A DNA stretch of 41,183 bases from positions 1-41,183 of the forward strand of contig JAEURV010000141.1 of the NCBI GenBank assembly GCA_016788465.1, given 5' to 3'. This document shows positions 20,009 to 32,633 of this stretch, piece by piece. The number at the start of each line of letters is the position of its first letter. Within the stretch, counting starts at the first letter, position 1. A model generated the notes under the pieces. It made no database searches and was not told the DNA's origin. It worked only from the letters and a program-made list of their open reading frames with translations. This DNA comes from Nitrospira sp. GTDB taxonomy: Bacteria > Nitrospirota > Nitrospiria > Nitrospirales > Nitrospiraceae. Position numbers and translations under genes: made by a program.

Positions 20009-20938
20009 CTAAGACGCCTGCAGTGCCACAGCTGGTTGGAGTGGAGTACTATACGGGGTGGCACGTACTTCTGCCTCTGAAGAATCAGTGTTCAGCAACG
20101 TCCACTTGTCTGGCTGAGACAGGATTTGTTGGACCAGCCTGGTATGGAGGGCATGCCCTGACCGATCTGCAACAATGTGCCCAATGAATGGCATTCCTAA
20201 GAGCGAAAAATCACCGATCAGGTCCAGGATTTTGTGACGGACGAATTCATCGTCAAATCGGAGGCCGGATTGATTGACGATACCGTCACCCGAGAGGACA
20301 ACCGTATTATCGAGTGTCCCACCTTTTCCAAGTCCACGAGCCCACAAGGCTTGAACCTCTTGAAGGAAGCCAAATGTCCGGGCCTCCGCAATTTCATTCT
20401 CAAAGGTACCGACTGAGCAATCATAGTCATACGTCTGCGTTTTGATCAGAGGGTGATCGTAGTGAATTGAATATGTAATACGGGGCGTCGTGGATGGCTC
20501 AATTCGTACCCGCTTTGAGCCGTCGGTGATTTCAATCGGAGCCATGATCTTGAGAAATGACTGCTTCCGTTCTTGGGACACTACGCCGGCAGACTGAATC
20601 AGCCTGACGAATGGCGCAGCGCTTCCATCCATGACCGGGACCTCGGCGGCCGTCACCTCAATGAAGGCGTTGTCGATATCCATGCCGGACAGGGCCGCCA
20701 GTAAATGCTCAATAGTTTGGACCTGAAATCCATTTCCTTTGATGGCGGTGCACAATTCCGTTGGGATCTTATGCTCGATGGAAACAGGTAGATAGGCATC
20801 AACGTCCGAAGTGCGGTTGACGAAAACGATGCCGGTGTCTGGCGGCGCAGGCCGCAGCGTGATTGACGCAGATTGGCCTGAGTGGAGCCCTACTCCGGAA
20901 CAAGTGACCGCTGATGCTAAGGTTTGTTGATTCCGCAC
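20009..20938 (-). CDS. lpxC: UDP-3-O-acyl-N-acetylglucosamine deacetylase
   Basis: The committed zinc-dependent step of lipid A synthesis, which shows an LPS-bearing outer membrane. The 309-residue protein has the two repeated domains of LpxC. Zinc ligands are H78 in TIEHLLAAL and the His/Asp pair in FVRHKILDLIGD; VTAAEVPVMDGSAAPF and a late HALHTRLVQQI with the catalytic His are also seen. Start is GTG 20938 behind GGGAGGA, giving MRNQQTLASAVTCSGVGLHSG, the usual opening. It is monocistronic and faces the HARE-HTH gene. Confidence 0.96.
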   Translation of the reverse strand: MRNQQTLASAVTCSGVGLHSGQSASITLRPAPPDTGIVFVNRTSDVDAYLPVSIEHKIPTELCTAIKGNGFQVQTIEHLLAALSGMDIDNAFIEVTAAEVPVMDGSAAPFVRLIQSAGVVSQERKQSFLKIMAPIEITDGSKRVRIEPSTTPRITYSIHYDHPLIKTQTYDYDCSVGTFENEIAEARTFGFLQEVQALWARGLGKGGTLDNTVVLSGDGIVNQSGLRFDDEFVRHKILDLIGDFSLLGMPFIGHIVADRSGHALHTRLVQQILSQPDKWTLLNTDSSEAEVRATPYSTPLQPAVALQAS

Positions 20939-21479: not shown

Positions 21480-23390
21480 ATGAATGTCAGTCCCCTTGTT
21501 TGGATCAGTTTTGGTCTGATGAGTCTCACGCTCAGCCTTATGCTGGCCGGCGATGCCTTGGTAAATCTGGTCCCTAACCGTGATTATCAGGACTTTGAAT
21601 ATCGTCGCGATGTGGCCGAGGCCTTGGCGGTTCAATATTCAGCCTTGGCAGAGCATGATCAGGTTGGGACCATCAAACTGTCAATGGAACGGTTCGTTCA
21701 GCGGAATCCTGACATCCGCTCGTTGGCGCTAATTCTTAAGAGTGGAGATGTTCTTGCACAGATCGGTGATCATGCTCACACGTGGGTACAGTCATCCGGT
21801 GACGCATCATCACTGGAGTTTCTCCAAGTCCCGATCTTTGCCGGCGACCGGCCGTGGGGTGTGCTTCAGGTCGCGTTTCGCAAATCGGATGTGTCAGCGG
21901 CAGAGCGTTTCCTGAGCGATCCTTGGGTGCGCTTCCTCGCCTTCGTCAGCGTGATGGGCTTTATCGGTTATCTGATCTTCATGAAACGTACCCTGCGCCA
22001 GCTGGATCCTTCCGGCATAGTTCCCTCCCGAGTAAAAGCCGCATTGGATGCCCTGACGCAGGGTGTGGTCATGATCGATACCCGGGACCTCATTGTGCTC
22101 ACCAACGATGCATTTAGCCGAGCAGTGGGCAAATCGGTCCAGGCGTTGATCGGAACCGATCTTGGATCGCTTTCATGGAAATCCGTTCATGCGACAGAGA
22201 GAACGTCGGTGCATCCATGGACCCAAGCAGTCATGGACCGACAGCCGCATGACAATATTCCGTTACTGCTGACGCAGCCAAACGGCGAGCTGCGGAAATT
22301 TATCGTGAATACAGTGCCGATTATGGATGACGGGATAATCGTGCGAGGGGCGTTGGTTTCGTTTCACGACGTCACAGAGCTGGATCGGGCCAATTCGCAA
22401 CTGAAGGAAGCCAATACTGAGTTAGAGGTGTCCCGCGTTCAGATTCTCAAGAAGAATCAGGAGCTCGAGGTGACCAACACGAACCTGCATATCGAGATGG
22501 ATCATCGAAGAAAAGCGGAAGCGGAAAAGGAAAAGCTCTATCAGCAACTTATGAATGCTTCACGCCAGGCAGGTATGGCGGATGTGGCCTCAAGCGTACT
22601 TCATAACGTCGGTAATGTGCTCAACAGTATCAACGTCTCGACGGATACGTTGCTGAAGACGCTCAAGAAACCGATGGTGGGGGATGTCTGTCGCATCGCG
22701 GCATTGTTCAATGAGCATCAGAACAATCTGCAGTCATTTCTGACGGCTGATCCAAAGGGGAAGCAAATTCCTTCTTATCTGGGACTGGTTGCCGAATCGC
22801 TCAGTGGAAGCCATCAGACGATCCAACAGGAACTCGACTCGCTGGTCAAAAAAGTCGATCACATCAAGCAAGTGATTATGTCGCAGCAAGATATTGCGCG
22901 TGCGGGGAGTATTCGGGAGCCTGTCTCGGTTGAGGATATGATGGAGCAGGCGTTGGTGATGGCGATGCCGGAGCCGGAGAAGTATGACATTCAGGTGCTG
23001 CGAGAATATCGTCCTATCCCTACGATCATGACGGATCGACATCAGGTGCTGCAGGTCTTGGTGAATCTCATCACTAATGCCAAGAATGCCATGGTTGAGC
23101 ATCCGGATAGTACACGCCGTCTCACTTTAAGACTGGGGGTGCCGACCGGCAGTGCCTTCGCGCGATTGGAAGTGGTCGATACCGGTGGGGGGATCAAGGC
23201 TGAAAACCTCCCGAAACTGTTTGCGCAGGGCTTTACCACGAGAAGGGCTGGTCATGGGTTGGGGCTGCATAGTTCCGCCATTGTCGCCAAGAATCTCGGG
23301 GGTGCGTTACAGGCGCAGAGTGCCGGTGAAGGACAGGGTGCGACGTTCACACTGGATCTGCCGCTGGTCCTTGTCGAGTCTGCGGCATGA
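21480..23390 (+). CDS. Membrane-bound PAS sensor histidine kinase
   Basis: About 636 residues (numbers here count from GTG 21474; ATG 21480 is preferred, no strong ribosome binding site for either). TM1 is near 8-28, then an extracytoplasmic sensor region (30-150) and TM2 near 152-170. A PAS domain follows (about 188-305, LDALTQGVVMIDTRDLIVLTN) and a coiled coil (305-365). The dimerisation/phosphoacceptor helix holds H377 in MADVASSVLHNVGNVLNSI. The HATPase has LVNLITNAKNAM, VVDTGGGI and GHGLGLHSSA. It overlaps the next gene by ATGA, so it should be the input of the receiver array that follows. The ligand is unknown. Confidence 0.9.
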   Translation: MNVSPLVWISFGLMSLTLSLMLAGDALVNLVPNRDYQDFEYRRDVAEALAVQYSALAEHDQVGTIKLSMERFVQRNPDIRSLALILKSGDVLAQIGDHAHTWVQSSGDASSLEFLQVPIFAGDRPWGVLQVAFRKSDVSAAERFLSDPWVRFLAFVSVMGFIGYLIFMKRTLRQLDPSGIVPSRVKAALDALTQGVVMIDTRDLIVLTNDAFSRAVGKSVQALIGTDLGSLSWKSVHATERTSVHPWTQAVMDRQPHDNIPLLLTQPNGELRKFIVNTVPIMDDGIIVRGALVSFHDVTELDRANSQLKEANTELEVSRVQILKKNQELEVTNTNLHIEMDHRRKAEAEKEKLYQQLMNASRQAGMADVASSVLHNVGNVLNSINVSTDTLLKTLKKPMVGDVCRIAALFNEHQNNLQSFLTADPKGKQIPSYLGLVAESLSGSHQTIQQELDSLVKKVDHIKQVIMSQQDIARAGSIREPVSVEDMMEQALVMAMPEPEKYDIQVLREYRPIPTIMTDRHQVLQVLVNLITNAKNAMVEHPDSTRRLTLRLGVPTGSAFARLEVVDTGGGIKAENLPKLFAQGFTTRRAGHGLGLHSSAIVAKNLGGALQAQSAGEGQGATFTLDLPLVLVESAA

Positions 23391-24262
23391 CCATGGATCG
23401 AGACGCGAGCAACCGTCGGATCTTAATCGTTGACGACAATGTCAATATTCACGAGGACTTCAGGAAAATTTTGTCCCCGCCGATAGAATCGGGAGCACTG
23501 GACCACGCCCGGGCGGCCCTCTTTGGGGAAGGTCCGACCATCCCTACCCAGATGTCGTATGAATTGGATTTTGCGACTCAAGGACGAGAGGGATTTGGTC
23601 TGGTCCAGACCGCGCATCAGAGAGGGATGCCTTATGCGGCAGCCTTTGTCGACATGCGCATGCCTCCTGGCTGGGACGGGCTCGAGACCATCGAGCATCT
23701 TTGGTATGTCGACCCGGAGATCCAAGTTGTCATCTGTTCGGCCTATTCTGACCATCCATGGGAAGACGTGAGTCGTCGCATTGGCGATACCGACAAGTTG
23801 CTCATCCTGATGAAACCGTTCAACAGCATCGAGGTCGTCCAAATGGCCAATGCTCTGACGAAGAAATGGAACTTGGCGCGTGCGGTGAAGCAACAGATTG
23901 AGGGTCTGGTACAGAGCGTGAGCCAACGGACGGCCGACGTACGTACCGTGAATCAGCGGTTTCAAGAGCACATTGCCAGCCGAATGACCGGATCCGGTTC
24001 GGACGATGTGCGGGAACCGGTTGGAGCGATGCTCCGTCAGAAGGAAGAGTTCCTGGCAATCATGAGTCATGAAATCCTGACACCGATGAATGAGTTGGTT
24101 GCGAAGGTGACCCTGTTGCTTGATAGCCCTCTAAATCCCGTCCAGCGTCAGCATGCATCGACTCTCGAGCGCTGCGCACAGGATCTGCTTTCCTTGATCA
24201 AGGATATGCATGAGTTCTTGGACAGTCGAAGACAGCAGACCGAAGTGAGCGATCAGCTTTGA
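23387..24262 (+). CDS. Array unit 1: receiver domain fused to a HisKA helix only
   Basis: The 291-residue protein has a receiver at 1-165 (RRILIVDDN, D16/D17; phosphoacceptor D89 in [19 protein letters not shown]; Lys in LILMKPF). There are 72 residues between the acidic pair and D89, about 28 more than in CheY. A coiled-coil linker and a HisKA-like helical hairpin follow (EEFLAIMSHEILTPMNEL, His kept, the usual Arg replaced by Leu). No ATPase domain follows: the frame ends at 24262. It can be phosphorylated in two places but cannot make phosphate itself, so a phosphorelay or dimer partner is likely. The start ATG overlaps the kinase stop. Confidence 0.85.
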   Translation: MTMDRDASNRRILIVDDNVNIHEDFRKILSPPIESGALDHARAALFGEGPTIPTQMSYELDFATQGREGFGLVQTAHQRGMPYAAAFVDMRMPPGWDGLETIEHLWYVDPEIQVVICSAYSDHPWEDVSRRIGDTDKLLILMKPFNSIEVVQMANALTKKWNLARAVKQQIEGLVQSVSQRTADVRTVNQRFQEHIASRMTGSGSDDVREPVGAMLRQKEEFLAIMSHEILTPMNELVAKVTLLLDSPLNPVQRQHASTLERCAQDLLSLIKDMHEFLDSRRQQTEVSDQL

Positions 24263-24301
24263 TGGTTGGGCGCGCTCGAAGGAGAGCAGGTAGTCAATCA
24301 T

Positions 24302-26176
24302 ATGGATAACCACGGCAAGAATCCGCGAGTCTTGATCGTCGACGACAATCAGTCGATCCATGAAGATTTTCGGCGGATCCTTCAATCTCAACCAGAAGAC
24401 GAAAGTCTGAATCACGCGCGTAGGGATTTGTTTGGTGGGGCGCCGCTTGTAGAGGCGCTCGCTCGCTTCGAGTTGGACTATGCGGTTCAGGGGCAGGCTG
24501 CTCTCGCATTGGTGCAGATGGCGAGGTTAGAGGGTCGCCCCTATGCCGTGGCATTCGTCGATATGCGGATGCCGACGGGGTGGGATGGCCTGGAAACGAT
24601 TGAACGACTCTGGGAGGTCGATGGTCGGATTCAGGTCGTGATCTGTACGGCCTATTCGGACCACTCGTGGGCAGAAATCGCGGCACGGTTGGGTATGAGC
24701 GATCGGTTGTTGATCTTGCGCAAACCGTTCGATTCGATCGAGGTTCAGCAGATTGCCGCCGCACTGACGCGCAAGTGGGAGTTGGGGCGCGATGTCCGAT
24801 TACAGATTGAAGATCTTGTAGCACAGGTGAATGCCCGTAACAGAGAACTCCAGGCTACGAACCAACTTCTTGAGCAGCAGGTGGCTGAGCGGACCGCAGA
24901 GCTTCAACGGCGTAACGAAGAGTTACAGAGAACAGTGGAGGCGCTCAAAGATGCCAAGGCGGAGGCAGACGATGCTAGCCAGGCCAAATCGCAGTTCTTG
25001 GCCTGCATGAGTCACGAAATCCGCACGCCCATGAACGGTATGCTCGGTATGAATGAGCTGCTTCTCTCAACTGCCTTGACGGATCAGCAGCGTCATTTTG
25101 CTGAAACCATCAATAATTCCGGCGAGCAGCTGGTTCAGATCGTCAACGACATCCTTGACTTGTCCAAGATCGAAGCCGGTCAGATGGATCTCCACATCGC
25201 TGGGTTTGACCTGGTAGCTACTGTGCAAGCGGTCATCGCTGGGTTCTTCGCGCCGGCGCAGAAAAAAAGACTCAGTTTCGAATGTCAGATCGACCCCGAG
25301 TTGCCCGCCGTGTGGCGAGGAGATGTCGCACGATTCCGGCAGATTCTGACCAATTTGGTGGGGAACGCCGTGAAGTTTACGGAACAAGGTGGCATCCTGA
25401 TTCACATTGAGCGTATTCAGGATAACCATGACAACGCCTTATTCAAAGTTACGGTATGCGATACGGGAATAGGTATCCCTCTCGATTCGCAGCAGAAGAT
25501 CTTCGATCCCTTTGCCCAAGCGGATGGATCAATGACGAGGCGGCATGGGGGAACAGGGTTGGGACTTGCGATCGTCAAACGGCTCGTCGCATTAATGGGT
25601 GGAGACATCGGCTTCAGCAGTACTCCCGGAAGGGGTTCCACGTTTTGGTTTACGGTCTGTCTTGAGAAGCAGAGGATGAGCGAAGGCATTGGGGAAGAGT
25701 GGAAGCGGGTGGATTCGTGCGCGACTCTTGACGCATCCCTCACTAAGGGGCCCGGAGGAACTCCCTCGAAGCTACGGTCGCGTGCACGTATCCTTTTGGC
25801 CGAAGACAATTCGACGAATCAGGAGGTGTTCCGTGGCATGCTGGAGCTCTGCGGCGAATCAGTCGACGTGGTCAGTACAGGTAGAGAGGCGATTGATGCG
25901 ATGGAACGGTTCCGATACGACCTCGTTCTTATGGACTGTGAAATGCCGGAGATGGATGGACTCACCGCCACTGCTGAAATTCGCCGACGGGGATTTAGAC
26001 GAACAGATGGCAAAAGAGTCCCGATTATCGCGTTGTCAGGCTACGCGTTCAGCAGCCATCAAGATGCCTGCGTTGCAGGCGGTATGGACGGCTTTCTCTC
26101 GAAGCCTGCGGGCCTAAAAGAGATTCGCAATATGCTGCAACAGTGGTTGCCAACCACCGAGTCACTGGCTGCGTAA
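24302..26176 (+). CDS. Array unit 2: hybrid histidine kinase, REC-HisKA-HATPase-REC
   Basis: The 624-residue cytoplasmic protein has the shared receiver (residues 1-165, [10 protein letters not shown]87 in [18 protein letters not shown]). A long coiled coil follows (165-230, [26 protein letters not shown]), then HisKA ([18 protein letters not shown]) and HATPase ([34 protein letters not shown]). A second, standard receiver at the C-terminus has [20 protein letters not shown] and LSKPAG. The frame is open from TTG 24266, but ATG 24302 gives the same N-terminal length as its paralogues. It lacks any sensor, so it probably takes its signal through the first receiver. Confidence 0.88.
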
Positions 26177-26212
26177 CGAACAGGATCGTTTATTCCGTGT
26201 GATCGAACAACC

Positions 26213-27478
26213 ATGACTACAAAGCGAGCGGATCATTCGGAAAATCGTCGACTCTTGATCATCGATGACAATGTACAGATCCACGAGGATTTTCGAAAGA
26301 TCCTCCAGCCAGGGAATGATACGCAGCGATTGGATGAAGCCCGTGCAGCAGTGTTTGGGGGTAGCCCACGCCTGAAGCCGCCGATGGAGTTTGAATTGGA
26401 GTGCGTGGATCAGGGGCAAGCCGCATTGGCCTTGATTCAGAAGGCGCGCCAGGAGAACCGGCCCTATGCCGTGGCGTTTGTCGACATGCGCATGCCTCCG
26501 GGCTGGGATGGGTTGGAGACGATCGAGCATTTCTGGGCTGTCGATCCAGATATTCAGACGGTGATCTGTACGGCATACACGGATCATTCCTGGGAAGACA
26601 TCATCCATCGACTGGGGCATGACGATCGCCTGCTGATCCTACAGAAGCCGTTTTCCAGCGTCGAAGTCTCCCAACTGGCAATGTCTCTCACGACCAAATG
26701 GAATTTGGCACGCCAGGCCCGTCAACGATTAGAAGCTGCTGAGGCTGCCAATGCTGCCAAGTCGGCGTTCCTTGCCAATGTCAGCCATGAAATTCGCACA
26801 CCGATGAACGGAATTATTGGAATGAGTGAACTCTTGCTGCAAACGGCTCTCAACGACAAGCAACGCCGGTATACGGAAATCTTGAACAAATCCGGGACAG
26901 CTCTGCTTCAAGTGATCAATGATATTTTAGACATTTCAAAGATCGAGGCAGGCAAACTGAAGTTGGAATCTATCGCCTTCGATCTGCGGCAGCTTGTGAA
27001 TGATGTCTTGGATCTCTTTCTCGGTCCTGCCCAGACCAAGGGGCTCAAACTGGCTGCAATCCTCCCTGACACCCTTCTCCCGGAATATGAGGGGGATCCT
27101 GTCCGTATTCGACAGATCCTGACCAACCTGATCGGTAACGCCGTCAAGTTTACTGCCCAGGGGCATATCACATTGTATGTCACGGTTGCTGAAAACATTG
27201 CTGGAGAGACGATGCTGTGTTTGAAAGTGCAGGATACGGGGATCGGCATCGATCCGATGATTCAATCGCAGCTTTTTAGACCATTTACACAGGCTGATGG
27301 GTCGAGCACACGGAAGTATGGTGGTACGGGACTTGGGTTGGCCATCGTGAAACAGCTGGCGAATTTGATGAGTGGGACGGTGGGTGTCGACAGTGTTCTT
27401 GGGCAAGGGTCGACATTTTGGTGCACGATGCGGGTCAGGAAGCCGGTCGCGCAGTCGCTGCGTGCCAAAGCAAGTTAA
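26213..27478 (+). CDS. Array unit 3: REC-HisKA-HATPase histidine kinase
   Basis: The 421-residue protein has the shared receiver (RRLLIIDDN, D18/D19; D91 in [18 protein letters not shown], again 72 residues after D19). A short helix without the long coiled coil of units 2 and 4 leads into HisKA ([22 protein letters not shown]). The HATPase has QILTNLIGNAVKFT, VQDTGIGI and [13 protein letters not shown], and ends near residue 412. It has no C-terminal receiver. Its kinase core is very like that of unit 2, supporting duplication followed by loss or gain of the last domain. The stop TAA overlaps an ATG of the next frame (TAATG). Confidence 0.88.
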   Translation: MTTKRADHSENRRLLIIDDNVQIHEDFRKILQPGNDTQRLDEARAAVFGGSPRLKPPMEFELECVDQGQAALALIQKARQENRPYAVAFVDMRMPPGWDGLETIEHFWAVDPDIQTVICTAYTDHSWEDIIHRLGHDDRLLILQKPFSSVEVSQLAMSLTTKWNLARQARQRLEAAEAANAAKSAFLANVSHEIRTPMNGIIGMSELLLQTALNDKQRRYTEILNKSGTALLQVINDILDISKIEAGKLKLESIAFDLRQLVNDVLDLFLGPAQTKGLKLAAILPDTLLPEYEGDPVRIRQILTNLIGNAVKFTAQGHITLYVTVAENIAGETMLCLKVQDTGIGIDPMIQSQLFRPFTQADGSSTRKYGGTGLGLAIVKQLANLMSGTVGVDSVLGQGSTFWCTMRVRKPVAQSLRAKAS

Positions 27479-27513
27479 TGTCTCATGTTGAGGAATTGTC
27501 GGAGGGTTGCCGG

Positions 27514-28761
27514 GTGACAGGCGAGGAGATCAATCGGCGTATTCTGGTCGTGGACGACAATGTGTCGATCCATCATGACTTCCTGAAGATTCTGCAGCCA
27601 AGCAGAGGATCAGAGGCCATGAAGCAGGCACGGGCCTCCTTGTTCGGTGAGCCCGACTTGGTTCAGACCTGTGATCAATTTGTCGTCGACTATGCAGATC
27701 AAGGGGCCACAGCACTGGGTCTCGTTGAAGCGGCAGGTAGGGGTGGGAACCCATATGCGATGGCATTCGTCGATATGCGGATGCCGCCGGGTTGGGACGG
27801 GCTTGAGACGATCGAGCGTCTCTGGCGAGTTGACGCAGAGTTACAGGTTGTGATCTGTACCGCCTACTCCGACCAGCCGTGGGATGAGATCAGGGAGCGA
27901 ATTGGGCGAACTGATAAGTTGCTGATTCTCCAGAAGCCGTTCAATAGTGTCGAGGTATTGCAGCTTGCGACTGCGCTCTGTCGGAAATGGGATCTCGCAA
28001 GAAACGTTGCGGGACAAGTTACTAAGTTGAGCCATCTTGTTGATGAACGGACTGCGGAACTCCGACAGGCGAACCGACAGCTGACGGAATTCAATGAAGC
28101 ACTGATGCGGACGGTTGCAAGCCTGGAGGCCGCACAGACTGAAATTTTACGGCAAAACGGGGAACTGGAACGTCTGGCTTCACGTGATGCGTTGACGGGA
28201 TGTCTCAATCGCCGTGCATTTTATGCTCGCTTTGAGGAGGCGTTTGCGGAGAGGCGTGAGCAGGGGAGTGAGCTGTGCTGTCTCATGGTCGACATTGACG
28301 ACTTTAAGCGTGTCAACGATGAATTTGGGCATGCCGTGGGAGATCAGGCGATTCAAGCCGTCGCGGACTGCCTTCAATCCGGGGTACGACTGACAGATAT
28401 GATGGGACGTTATGGAGGGGAAGAATTCTGCCTGCTGTTCCCGCGTACGGCATTGGGTGAGGCGACGGTGTTAGCGGAACGGCTTCGAGCCCGTGTGGCT
28501 GCGGAAGCCGGTAACCGTGTGCGGATGGCTTCCGGTATGACCCTGACGGTGAGTATCGGCGTGTCGACCAGCGCGTTCGGAGCGCGAGCCCCACTGGAGT
28601 TGATCGATCAGGCCGATAAGGCGCTGTATGCTGCGAAGGAGAGCGGCCGAAACTGTGTCATGGCAATGGATGTCCTGGTCCCAGGGCTCAATCCTTCTGA
28701 ACAGCTTGAGCTTCAGGTCCGTCGAGTCACCCCGCGCGAGTCGCCTCATCTCGCCATCTAG
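27514..28761 (+). CDS. Array unit 4: receiver-diguanylate cyclase (REC-GGDEF)
   Basis: About 415 residues. The shared receiver (RRILVVDDN, D15; D87 in [18 protein letters not shown]) is followed by a coiled coil (LVDERTAELRQANRQL) and a GGDEF domain (RDALTGCLNRRAF, MVDIDDFKRVND, active-site GGEEF). It should make cyclic di-GMP. RLTD lies exactly five residues before GGEEF, the product-inhibition site. GTG 27514 is chosen: GGAGGG lies 7 bases before it and it gives the same N-terminal length as the other units. ATG 27478, overlapping the previous stop, is the alternative. Confidence 0.9.
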   Translation: MTGEEINRRILVVDDNVSIHHDFLKILQPSRGSEAMKQARASLFGEPDLVQTCDQFVVDYADQGATALGLVEAAGRGGNPYAMAFVDMRMPPGWDGLETIERLWRVDAELQVVICTAYSDQPWDEIRERIGRTDKLLILQKPFNSVEVLQLATALCRKWDLARNVAGQVTKLSHLVDERTAELRQANRQLTEFNEALMRTVASLEAAQTEILRQNGELERLASRDALTGCLNRRAFYARFEEAFAERREQGSELCCLMVDIDDFKRVNDEFGHAVGDQAIQAVADCLQSGVRLTDMMGRYGGEEFCLLFPRTALGEATVLAERLRARVAAEAGNRVRMASGMTLTVSIGVSTSAFGARAPLELIDQADKALYAAKESGRNCVMAMDVLVPGLNPSEQLELQVRRVTPRESPHLAI

Positions 28762-29184: not shown

Positions 29185-29192
29185 GCCCCTTG

Positions 29193-29870
29193 ATGGTACG
29201 CCGCTTCAGTCATTTCCAATCTTCTGTCGGGAAGAAGATGGTCATAGCCCTAACCGGGTTAGGCCTTGTGGTGTTCGTTGTCTTTCATATGCTGGGGAAT
29301 CTTCAGTTGTTCGAAGGGCCTCTCGCGCTTAACAGGTACGCTGCCGTTCTGCGCGATATGCCGATCCTGCTCTGGGCCGTTCGAATCGGATTGCTAAGTA
29401 TGGCGGTGTTTCACATCGGGCTCGCACTCCAGCTGAGCATGCAAAATCGTCGTGCTCGTCCCCTTGAGTACACGATTCACCGATATCGAAAGGCGTCGAT
29501 CGCTTCCCGCACGATGGCGATCTCCGGGATGGCCCTGTTGCTGTTTGTCGCTTTCCACCTCTTGCATCTCACGGCAGGAGTCATCGATCCTGGATTCGCT
29601 GATCGTCGCGATCCTGAAGGTAATCGGGATGTCTACACGAAGGTGGTGCATGCCTTTCAAAATCCTTTCGTGGTCATCCTCTACCTCGTCGGCCAGCTGG
29701 GGCTTGGTCTTCATCTGCGCCATGCGATTGCCAGCAGTGTCCAGACGATGGGGTTTGAGCATGCCGGGTTGAATCGTCTGTTGAAAGCGCTCGGTCCTGT
29801 AATCGGGCTGATCGTGGTTCTAGGGAATGTTGCGATCATCCTCGCCGTCTTTCTAGGGATCGTGCACTGA
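29193..29870 (+). CDS. sdhC: Succinate dehydrogenase/fumarate reductase cytochrome b subunit (B-type)
   Basis: The 225-residue membrane anchor has five hydrophobic segments (about 16-40, 58-82, 106-130, 158-180 and 200-222). His residues in them (H32, H74, H122/H125, H174/H177) can ligate two haems b, as in the B-type single-subunit anchor. It passes electrons between SdhB and the quinone pool. The start is ATG 29193, after an in-frame TTG at 29190. The stop overlaps the sdhA start (ATGA). With no separate sdhD, the operon is C-A-B, the order usual for the B type. Confidence 0.9.
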
Positions 29871-31783
29871 TGATGAAACTGGATGCGAAAATTCCGTCCG
29901 GACCTCTGGAAAGTAAATGGGACCGGCATCGGTTCAGTGAAAGGTTGGTCAGCCCCAATAACAAGCGGAAACTTACCGTGATCGTCGTCGGCACCGGCCT
30001 TGCCGGTGCAAGTGCGGCATCGACGTTGGGGCAACTCGGTTACCACGTGGAGTGCTTTTGTTTTCACGATAGTCCGCGTCGGGCTCACAGTATTGCAGCA
30101 CAGGGGGGAATCAACGCAGCGAAAAACTACCAGGACGACGGCGATAGTGTCGGGCGATTATTTTATGACACGATCAAAGGCGGTGATTTCCGCTCCCGAG
30201 AAGCCAATGTGTATCGGCTTGCTCAGGTGAGCACGCAAATCATCGACCAGTGTGTGGCACTCGGCATCCCCTTTGCCAGGGAGTACGGTGGGCAATTAGC
30301 GAACCGGTCATTCGGGGGCGTTCAAGTCTCCCGGACGTTTTACTGTCGGGGACAGACAGGACAACAACTCCTGCTGGGTGCCTATTCGGCGCTTTGTTGG
30401 CAGATCGAACGTGGTCAAGTCACCATGCATCCGCGTACGGAACTGCTCGACCTAATTTTGGTCGATGGTCACGCTCGAGGCATCGTGGCGCGGGATTTGG
30501 TCACCGGACGCATCAGTGCTCATATGGCCAATGCCGTGGTACTGGCCACGGGTGGGTACAGCAATGTGTACTATCTCTCGACCAATGCGAGCGGATGCAA
30601 CGTGACGGCGACCTACCGGGCATGGAAGCATGGGGCGGCGTTCGCGAATCCCTGTTTTACCCAAATTCACCCGACCGCAATCCCACCGGGTGATGCTCAT
30701 CAAGCGAAGTTGACCCTCATGTCTGAATCGCTGAGGAACGACGGCCGGTTATGGGTGCCGAAGGTACCGTCGGATCAGCGATCACCAGGCGATATTCCTC
30801 CGATAGAGCGCGATTATTTTCTGGAGCGACGATACCCACGGTTCGGGAATCTTGCCCCGCGGGATATTGCCTCGCGTGCGGTGAAGGTCGTGTGCGATGA
30901 AGGCTATGGTGTCGGACCAGGCGGTCAGGGCGTGTATCTGGATTTTTCGGACGTCATCGATCAACAGGGGCTAGAAGTGGTCCGTGAGCGTTATGGCAAT
31001 CTCTTCGACATGTATCATCGGATCACAGGCGAGGATGCCTACCAGGTTCCTATGCGGATTTACCCGGCTCCGCACTATACGATGGGAGGGCTCTGGGTGG
31101 ATTACAATTTGATGAGCACGATCCCGGGACTCTTCGTCATCGGTGAAGCAAACTTCGCGGACCATGGTGCCAACCGGTTGGGTGCGAGTTCGTTGATGCA
31201 AGGGCTGGCCGACGGCTATTTTATTCTACCGTATACAATCGGCCATTACCTGGCAACGGCAACGCTCCCGCCTATCCCGGACGATCATGCGGAAGCGCGT
31301 GAGGCGATACAGCGCGTGACGATGCGGATCAATCGGCTACTGACGGTAAAGGGGCGTCGGACCGCCGCCATGTTTCACCGAGAGCTCGGGACGCTCTTGT
31401 GGAATCACTGCGGCATGTCGCGCAACGAAGGTGGGCTTGCCTCGGCATTGCGGTCGATTCCCAAGCTTCGTGAGGAATTTTGGCATGATGTGATGGTGCC
31501 AGGGTCTGGGAGTGCTTTTAATCAGGAGTTGGAGTATGCGGGGCGGGTAGCGGACTATCTCGAATTTGCCGAATTGCTCTGTCACGACGCCCTCCATCGT
31601 CTCGAGTCATGCGGTGCGCATTTTCGCGAGGAGTATCAAACAGAGGATGGTGAGCCACGGCGCGACGATGCACACTTTGCCTACGTGGCGGCCTGGGAGT
31701 ATCGGGATCGAGCTGTGCCGGTTCTCCATAAGGAACCGCTGACGTTCGAGTTCGTTCCTCCGACCAGGAGAAGCTATCAGTAG
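29870..31783 (+). CDS. sdhA: Succinate dehydrogenase/fumarate reductase flavoprotein subunit
   Basis: Interconverts succinate and fumarate on a covalently bound FAD. The 637-residue protein has the dinucleotide fold [14 protein letters not shown] (about 38-51). The FAD-linking H73 is in [18 protein letters not shown]. Active-site stretches QIHPTAI and [12 protein letters not shown], and late [20 protein letters not shown], are present. ATG 29870 overlaps the sdhC stop; ATG 29873 is equally possible. In an organism using the reductive TCA cycle the complex may run as fumarate reductase; the sequence does not decide direction. Confidence 0.95.
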
Positions 31784-31844
31784 CCGGTAACAGGTGGGAG
31801 CGGTCAGGGGTGAAAGGACAACGAGTCGGATTGCAGCACATGTT

Positions 31845-32633
31845 ATGACATTTACCTTGAAGATTTGGCGGCAGAATGGTCCGCACGAGCGGGGTCGGTT
31901 CGTCACCTATGAGGCGTACGATGTGAGCCCGGGCATGTCCTTTCTGGAAATGCTCGATGGTATCAATCAGAGGCTGATTGGTACTGGTGAAGAGCCTGTG
32001 GCATTCGAGCAGGATTGTCGGGAAGGGATTTGCGGGAGTTGCTCCCTGGTCATTAATGGGATCCCCCATGGCCCTGATCAAGGCATCACGACCTGCCAGC
32101 TGTACATGAGACGGTTTTCTGATGGGGCAAGCATTACGATTGAGCCGTGGCGGGCCAACGCCTTTCCAATCCTGAAAGACTTGGTGGTCGATCGCAGTGC
32201 GCTGGATCGTATCATGCAGGCAGGCGGCTATATCTCCGTCAATACGGGTGGCGCCGTCGACGGGAATGTGCTCTTGATCGGGAAAGATCAAGCCGAAACC
32301 GCGATGGATGCGGCGTCGTGTATCGGCTGCGGAGCCTGTGTGGCGGCCTGCAAGAATGCTTCGGCCATGCTGTTTGTTGCGGCAAAGGTGTCGCACTTAG
32401 CGACCCTTCCGCAAGGGAGGCCGGAACGGGCGCGCCGTGTGAGTGCAATGCTGAAGGCCATGGACCAAGAAGGGTTCGGTTCTTGCGGCAATCAGTATGA
32501 GTGCGAGGCCGTGTGCCCCAAAGGCATCAGTGCTCGTTTCATCGCCAATCTCAATCGTGAGTACCTTCGGGCAGGCATTGTCGAATCCGGCTGTCCCAGT
32601 GAGCCGGAGTCTCCACATGCGGAATCCGCATAG
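31845..32633 (+). CDS. sdhB: Succinate dehydrogenase/fumarate reductase iron-sulfur subunit
   Basis: The 262-residue protein carries three Fe-S clusters. The [2Fe-2S] site is C58-REGI-C63-GS-C66 with C84. The other two use [13 protein letters not shown] and [15 protein letters not shown]. The frame is open from 31794, but ATG 31845 gives [12 protein letters not shown], the normal start of the ferredoxin domain; the ribosome binding site is weak, so coupling to sdhA (61-base gap) is likely. The C-terminal 20 residues ([13 protein letters not shown]) are an unconserved tail. Confidence 0.93.

Follow-up and report, generated by a model that had tools for sequence, protein, structure and literature searches.

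One membrane kinase, four sister receivers: a conserved gene module of Nitrospira with a putatively branched output

What kind of signalling pathway is encoded by a run of four sister receiver genes that stand behind a single membrane histidine kinase and each end in a different output? The question is raised by a 41,183-nucleotide stretch of Nitrospira sp. DNA (assembly GCA_016788465.1, contig JAEURV010000141.1, positions 1 to 41,183; hereafter the window), in which a sensor kinase (HK) is followed by four receiver-fusion genes, labelled R1 to R4 in their order. Here, we report that this order recurs in many independent genomes, and we lean, with modest confidence, towards an operon-encoded branched phosphosignalling module in which one kinase would serve all four receivers. 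Its genes are the following.

21480..23390, + strand: HK, a membrane sensor kinase with a transmembrane segment, a WalK/CitA-like extracytoplasmic PAS/Cache domain, a second transmembrane segment, a PAS domain, an HNVGN-type dimerisation/phosphoacceptor domain and HATPase (Pfam, motifs and structure model)
23387..24262, + strand: R1, a receiver with HisKA and no HATPase (Pfam)
24302..26176, + strand: R2, receiver-HisKA-HATPase-receiver, a hybrid kinase with an N-terminal receiver (Pfam and orthologues)
26213..27478, + strand: R3, receiver-HisKA-HATPase, a receiver-gated kinase (Pfam and orthologues)
27478..28761, + strand: R4, a receiver, coiled coil and GGDEF diguanylate cyclase (Pfam GGDEF E 5.5e-42)

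The earlier note, made from the letters alone, had described four adjacent genes of one receiver type with four different ends behind a membrane kinase, and this arrangement is confirmed by the open reading frames and Pfam. Both overlaps reported there are present as well: ATGA joins the start of R1 to the stop of HK, and TAATG the start of R4 (ATG 27478) to the stop of R3. HK starts at ATG 21480, the list of open reading frames beginning at a GTG 6 bases upstream, and R2 most likely at ATG 24302, where the list has an upstream TTG at 24266.

Profiles derived from the window proteins were used to score domain order in all loci retrieved, and the intact order HK-R1-R2-R3-R4 was recovered in 14 of them, the window among them (the others being L038, L039, L040, L042, L044, L045, L048, L049, L053, L054, L057, L121 and L155). 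The full order with a split gene is found in L050 and L052, and six further loci are consistent with it and cut by contig ends. Reduced forms retain the same gene order: HK-R1-R4 (L047, L055, L056, L058, L059, L133), HK-R1-R3 (L061, L063, L064), HK-R1-R3-R4 (L066, and also L153, where R4 lies some 8 kb further on) and HK-R1-R2-R3 (L159). HK and R1 form a near-invariant core, with R2, R3 and R4 coming and going; the exceptions to this core are R2-R4 alone (L082, L154), HK-R4 (L073) and L094. The ATGA overlap of HK and R1 recurs in 21 of 21 relatives checked, and some loci with the same order belong to contigs that are from hundreds of kilobases up to megabases long. On contigs long enough to show it, the module is mostly flanked by two neighbours that do not belong to it.

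20009..20938, - strand: lpxC, the conserved left neighbour (Pfam LpxC; same place in many relatives)
29190..32633, + strand: sdhC-sdhA-sdhB-like genes, the conserved right neighbour (Pfam Sdh_cyt for the first gene; place in relatives)

The recurrence of one order in many independent genomes excludes misassembly, chance and a single-genome oddity, so that the search for syntenic gene runs proposed in the earlier note reveals a conserved layout, neither unique to one assembly nor an artefact of assembly. As R1, R3 and R4 also occur in two sister genera (g16 and g18), the duplications that produced them are older than the genus, and the branching order favours reading the reduced sets as probable losses rather than earlier stages. 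In L043 and L115, lpxC and sdhC enclose two HK copies, each with an R1, that are separated by runs of N, reflecting either a duplication or a scaffolding error.

The four receivers themselves are close relatives, those of R2, R3 and R4 each being 59-60% identical to that of R1, and all four share one motif of 16 residues. In the window genome, these four are the only strong copies of the receiver type, the next matches having E values of 1e-6 and 1e-5. In a maximum likelihood tree of 123 receivers, 88 of them from the module, the R1 receivers form one clade (support 100/98), the R4 receivers another (100/99, with one further protein inside), the main set of R2 receivers a third (99/90), and the R3 receivers a single lineage; a node supported at 90/88 unites R2, R3 and R4. 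The 88 receivers of the module all fall on one side of a branch supported at 76/83, where no sequence from outside the Nitrospira relatives is found. Each of R1 to R4 is thus, as judged from the tree, an old lineage, and the four probably descend from duplications inside the Nitrospira lineage in the course of which outputs were exchanged, the node uniting them being moderately supported. The earlier proposal of duplication with a swap of outputs gains support from this tree, in which each position has its own clade and the four form one, Nitrospira-only, joint clade with the moderate support given above.

Would such a kinase and such receivers be able to pass phosphate? In HK, the HNVGN H-box, the N-box and the DTGGG/GHGLGLH glycine boxes are invariant or nearly so across 21 homologues; the first histidine kinase thus has an intact HATPase at the level of motifs, as a phosphorelay requires. 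Pfam recognises PAS and HATPase_c in HK and no HisKA, because its H-box is of the HNVGN type (exact in 107 of 136 kinase matches). In its fold, the sensor model matches WalK and CitA in their extracytoplasmic PAS/Cache domains (Z 10-11, root-mean-square deviation about 3 over 99-115 residues). Kinase and receiver types also travel together, an HNVGN-type kinase lying within 8 kb on the same strand for 59 of 73 loci with this receiver type, and in 9 more loci the contig end cuts off the view. Among the receivers, the acidic pair and the Lys are kept in every R1-R4 sequence with letters there, and the phosphorylation Asp and the Ser/Thr each in all but one; R1 accordingly has the acidic pair, Asp, Ser/Thr and Lys conserved, as is expected of an intermediate receiver in a phosphorelay. 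The kinase-facing helix alpha1 is held constant as well, with I21, H22, D24, F25, I28 and L29 invariant across the R1-R4 paralogues. At the switch position, which precedes the Lys by three residues, nearly the whole family has Ile or Val, as opposed to the usual Tyr or Phe. Tyr/Phe coupling at this position is the activation route in terminal receivers, and variation is seen in some intermediary receivers (PMC9981736); these receivers, built for phosphorylation, may for this reason not signal in the textbook way. The FxSGY/FATGUY motif of CckA (PMC9981736) was rejected as a basis for assigning these receivers to the shuttle type, as the CTAY/CSAY found here was judged too common among regulators to be decisive.

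The outputs are likewise intact. By Pfam, R2 and R3 are second kinases with an N-terminal receiver, as in NmpRSTU- or RedCDEF-like systems, and in R4 both the RxxD I-site and the GRYGGEEF active site (of the form GG[D/E]EF) are invariant across 35 orthologues, which makes the cyclic di-GMP (c-di-GMP) end of the pathway suggested in the earlier note plausible at the level of a predicted enzyme. The R2 HisKA-HATPase core of the window (24983-25657) is 91-92% identical to L038, L044, L065 and L076 and 74-76% to L040 and L042, unlike HK, R1 and the R2 receiver, which place the window with L040/L042; this looks like recombination or allelic replacement.

R1 is the unusual member. Its C-terminus is clean, ending after the second dimerisation and histidine phosphotransfer (DHp) helix 39 bases before the start of R2, and HATPase is absent from all 35 copies examined. 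The HisKA phosphoacceptor His is kept in 33 of these 35 and the following Glu is invariant in 24 aligned R1 proteins, so that R1 carries, at sequence level, a second phosphoacceptor without the domain for phosphorylating itself. By a counting method over 60 codons, in which some dS values approach saturation, the ratio of nonsynonymous to synonymous substitution rates (dN/dS) of the R1 HisKA is 0.017-0.036 against the five nearest relatives, below the 0.046-0.080 of its own receiver. With these low values and 35 copies lacking HATPase, R1 is a selected protein rather than a remnant, its HisKA being under strong purifying selection and the missing HATPase a selected trait. Origin as a copy of R2 or R3 with recent HATPase loss is not supported, its HisKA being about 32-49% identical to theirs. 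Pfam finds no PAS, GAF or further domain in R1, only a helical linker. Besides the receiver, which has an additional helix after alpha1, a low-confidence model (predicted local distance difference test 61) contains a long helix and a hairpin of two helices; with this model, a fold search returned only weak whole-length matches (PorX) and ordinary receivers. Among PDB structures, the HisKA of R1 is similar to RetS and to related DHp domains.

In the mechanism that we infer, which extends to every phosphotransfer step, the direction of control and the role of R1, HK would sense an extracytoplasmic cue, autophosphorylate on the HNVGN histidine and phosphorylate the Asp of all four paralogous receivers, as is suggested by their one shared ancestor and same kinase-facing helix. 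Phosphorylated R4 would alter the synthesis of c-di-GMP; R2 and R3 would have their cytoplasmic kinase cores gated by their own receivers in the manner of NmpS, with the final targets of these kinases lying elsewhere in the genome; and R1 together with HK would exchange phosphoryl groups or act as a phosphatase, and in this way set the phosphate share of the other branches. The shared order, the coupling through ATGA and TAATG, and the fixed chromosomal place speak for such a branched module.

Several observations weigh against it. The switch residue of R4 is Ile in 36 of 36 receivers, with no aromatic residue at this position, and the usual activation route may consequently not apply to R4. 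The clade of all four receivers has only the moderate support of its node (76/83). None of the five products of the locus contains a DNA-binding response regulator domain by Pfam, so that the R2 and R3 branches would have to end outside the operon. The His of R1 is replaced by Tyr in L066 (L066:7650-8585) and L067 (L067:755-1690), and the R1 of L094 (L094:9509-9955) is pseudogene-like, its receiver part being broken and its HisKA part altered, from which it appears that R1 is not indispensable everywhere.

The chief rival to this branched reading is a serial phosphorelay, in which phosphate would pass from the His of HK to the Asp of R1, on to the His of the R1 HisKA, and from there to the receivers of R2, R3 and R4, with direct transfer from HK to R2-R4 being minor; R1 would then unite Spo0F and Spo0B in one protein. 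We consider this unlikely, even though much of R1 would suit it: wherever both genes are intact, R1 is the first gene after HK; its His and adjacent Glu are conserved; having no HATPase, it could have this His charged only from its Asp or by another kinase in trans; and an Ile/Val switch, as well as the precedents of Red, Spo0B, ChpT and PhyT (PMC5898713, PMC3018481), would be in keeping with a relay. The minimal clusters HK-R1-R4 and HK-R1-R3 fit a serial and a branched reading alike. Four receivers of one ancestor would, however, be expected to take phosphate directly from the same kinase, and clusters in which R2 and R4 occur without R1, or R4 directly with HK, as well as the Tyr in place of the R1 His in L066/L067, do not sit well with an obligatory intermediate. 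We give a similarly small chance to R1 being a self-contained Asp-to-His hub that shares HK phosphate among three sister receivers, in a receiver family whose Ile/Val switch is adapted to shuttling and not to allosteric output.

Less credible again is an R1 whose HisKA is not phosphorylated and acts in dimerisation, as a decoy or as an aid to a phosphatase, inhibiting or pairing with the DHp domains of R2, R3 or other kinases in a RetS-like manner. DHp domains are dimerisation modules, that of R1 resembles RetS, and in two loci the gene is kept with the His lost; yet the His stands in 33 of 35 copies under very low dN/dS, and R1 persists in clusters without R2 and R3. A general phosphatase role is further disfavoured by the Thr of HExxT, a residue tied to phosphatase activity, which is replaced in several R1 orthologues.

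It is improbable that the four regulators are merely juxtaposed duplicates answering to different kinases, in an order that was simply inherited. The receivers were already distinct from one another when the genus split and the parts are lost independently, as separate partners would allow, but the kinase-facing helix has not diversified, order and coupling are strict, and among strong matches the window genome holds one other kinase of the HK sensor and H-box type, with no receiver of the module type near it. This second kinase, 42% identical to HK (L164:2352-4292, on contig C6), stands alone and is followed by other genes that are apparently unrelated. For R1 to be a remnant in decay or the product of misassembly is scarcely credible, and across the clade in its entirety this reading is already refuted: truncated kinases are a common product of decay and L094 looks the part, but 35 distinct copies without HATPase, a clean C-terminus and the dN/dS values above stand against it.

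How does the branched module compare with known systems? Foci of more than two genes make up only 2.4% of two-component foci (PMC3018481), and the same paper names RedCDEF and CbbRRS as complex examples, in which the middle place is taken by a transmitter or by a receiver-phosphotransfer protein. In RedCDEF of Myxococcus xanthus, a kinase-like transmitter that is apparently unable to autophosphorylate takes phosphate from a receiver, as proposed for R1; its layout is T1-R1R2-T2-R3, the second transmitter has no fused receiver, and no diguanylate cyclase fusion is mentioned in that description (PMC3018481). CbbRRS of Rhodopseudomonas palustris, as described in the same paper, offers CbbRR1, a fusion of a receiver with a phosphotransfer domain that is accompanied by a kinase and another regulator; here, the phosphotransfer domain falls under P (Hpt) and not HisKA, a hybrid kinase stands on top, and there are no tandem sister receivers. 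The M. xanthus NmpRSTU system comes close in other respects, as a second kinase (receiver-HisKA-CA, like R3) has its N-terminal receiver phosphorylated by the first, a further receiver protein is also phosphorylated, and several components share one operon (PMC11841059); NmpU-NmpS is therefore a precedent for a receiver-gated second kinase, with gating as proposed for NmpS. It differs in ending in an NtrC-like DNA-binding regulator, in NmpT consisting of two receivers only, and in NmpU being a soluble cytoplasmic kinase (PMC11841059). Unlike the Nitrospira module, NmpRSTU has no GGDEF branch, no receiver-HisKA protein without CA and no four sister receivers.

PhyT, Spo0B and ChpT retain a CA domain in degenerate form and are not known to carry a fused receiver, whereas R1 has no CA part at all. 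They resemble R1 as kinase-derived, DHp-type phosphotransferases without kinase activity (PMC5898713). Alike in composition are archaeal proteins with REC and HisKA and no HATPase, such as AF_1472, none of which had been studied by 2018 and which may act as phosphoacceptors, in phosphotransfer or as phosphatases (PMC5847659). R1 has the core of this class, a receiver and HisKA without ATPase; the archaeal proteins carry PAS/GAF domains, which R1 does not, and have no described fixed kinase partner (PMC5847659). R4, in turn, shares a receiver, a GGEEF active site and an RxxD I-site with PleD/WspR-type diguanylate cyclases, and differs in its single IHEDF-type receiver, the extra segment after alpha1 and the Ile at the switch. 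The open-access literature yielded no description of this layout in Nitrospira. The layout is an undescribed variant of multi-component two-component systems and not a member of the Nmp, Red or PleD families.

Which organisms carry the module? The window genome (G000; 3.7 Mb in 380 contigs) carries an amoA-family gene and is hence identified as a metagenome-assembled genome of a comammox Nitrospira. The receiver type is present in 34 of 99 relatives and, across a sample of 396 genomes from the phylum, in 48, almost all of which belong to the families f1 and f3 within a single order. Among relatives G000-G058 of the genus, amoA occurs in 20 of 24 receiver-positive and 14 of 35 receiver-negative genomes (Fisher p 0.0012, not corrected for relatedness); with 4 of the 24 positives lacking detected amoA and 14 of the 35 negatives having it, the receiver type was rejected as a strict comammox marker. 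The L094 sequences (CAADGK010000056.1) group within Nitrospira throughout, and the record title Nitrosospira is probably wrong. Other arrays of the same family occur elsewhere in the Nitrospirales (L079, L080, L083, L086, L098, L136, L141), with single receivers between two HNVGN kinases, receiver-HNVGN-kinase fusions or receiver-HATPase proteins; multi-copy use of this receiver and kinase family is consequently not unique to the present layout.

The natural series from HK-R1-R4 and HK-R1-R3 through HK-R1-R3-R4 to all five genes sets one kinase before sister receivers that number two, three or four, in most cases at one and the same site on the chromosome, and thereby makes the growth and pruning of branched two-component pathways testable step by step. 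With R1, whose kinase is next door, the receiver-HisKA proteins that lack ATPase, a class called unstudied in 2018, gain a bacterial member. The hosts include comammox Nitrospira, in which the control of c-di-GMP and attachment is little known.

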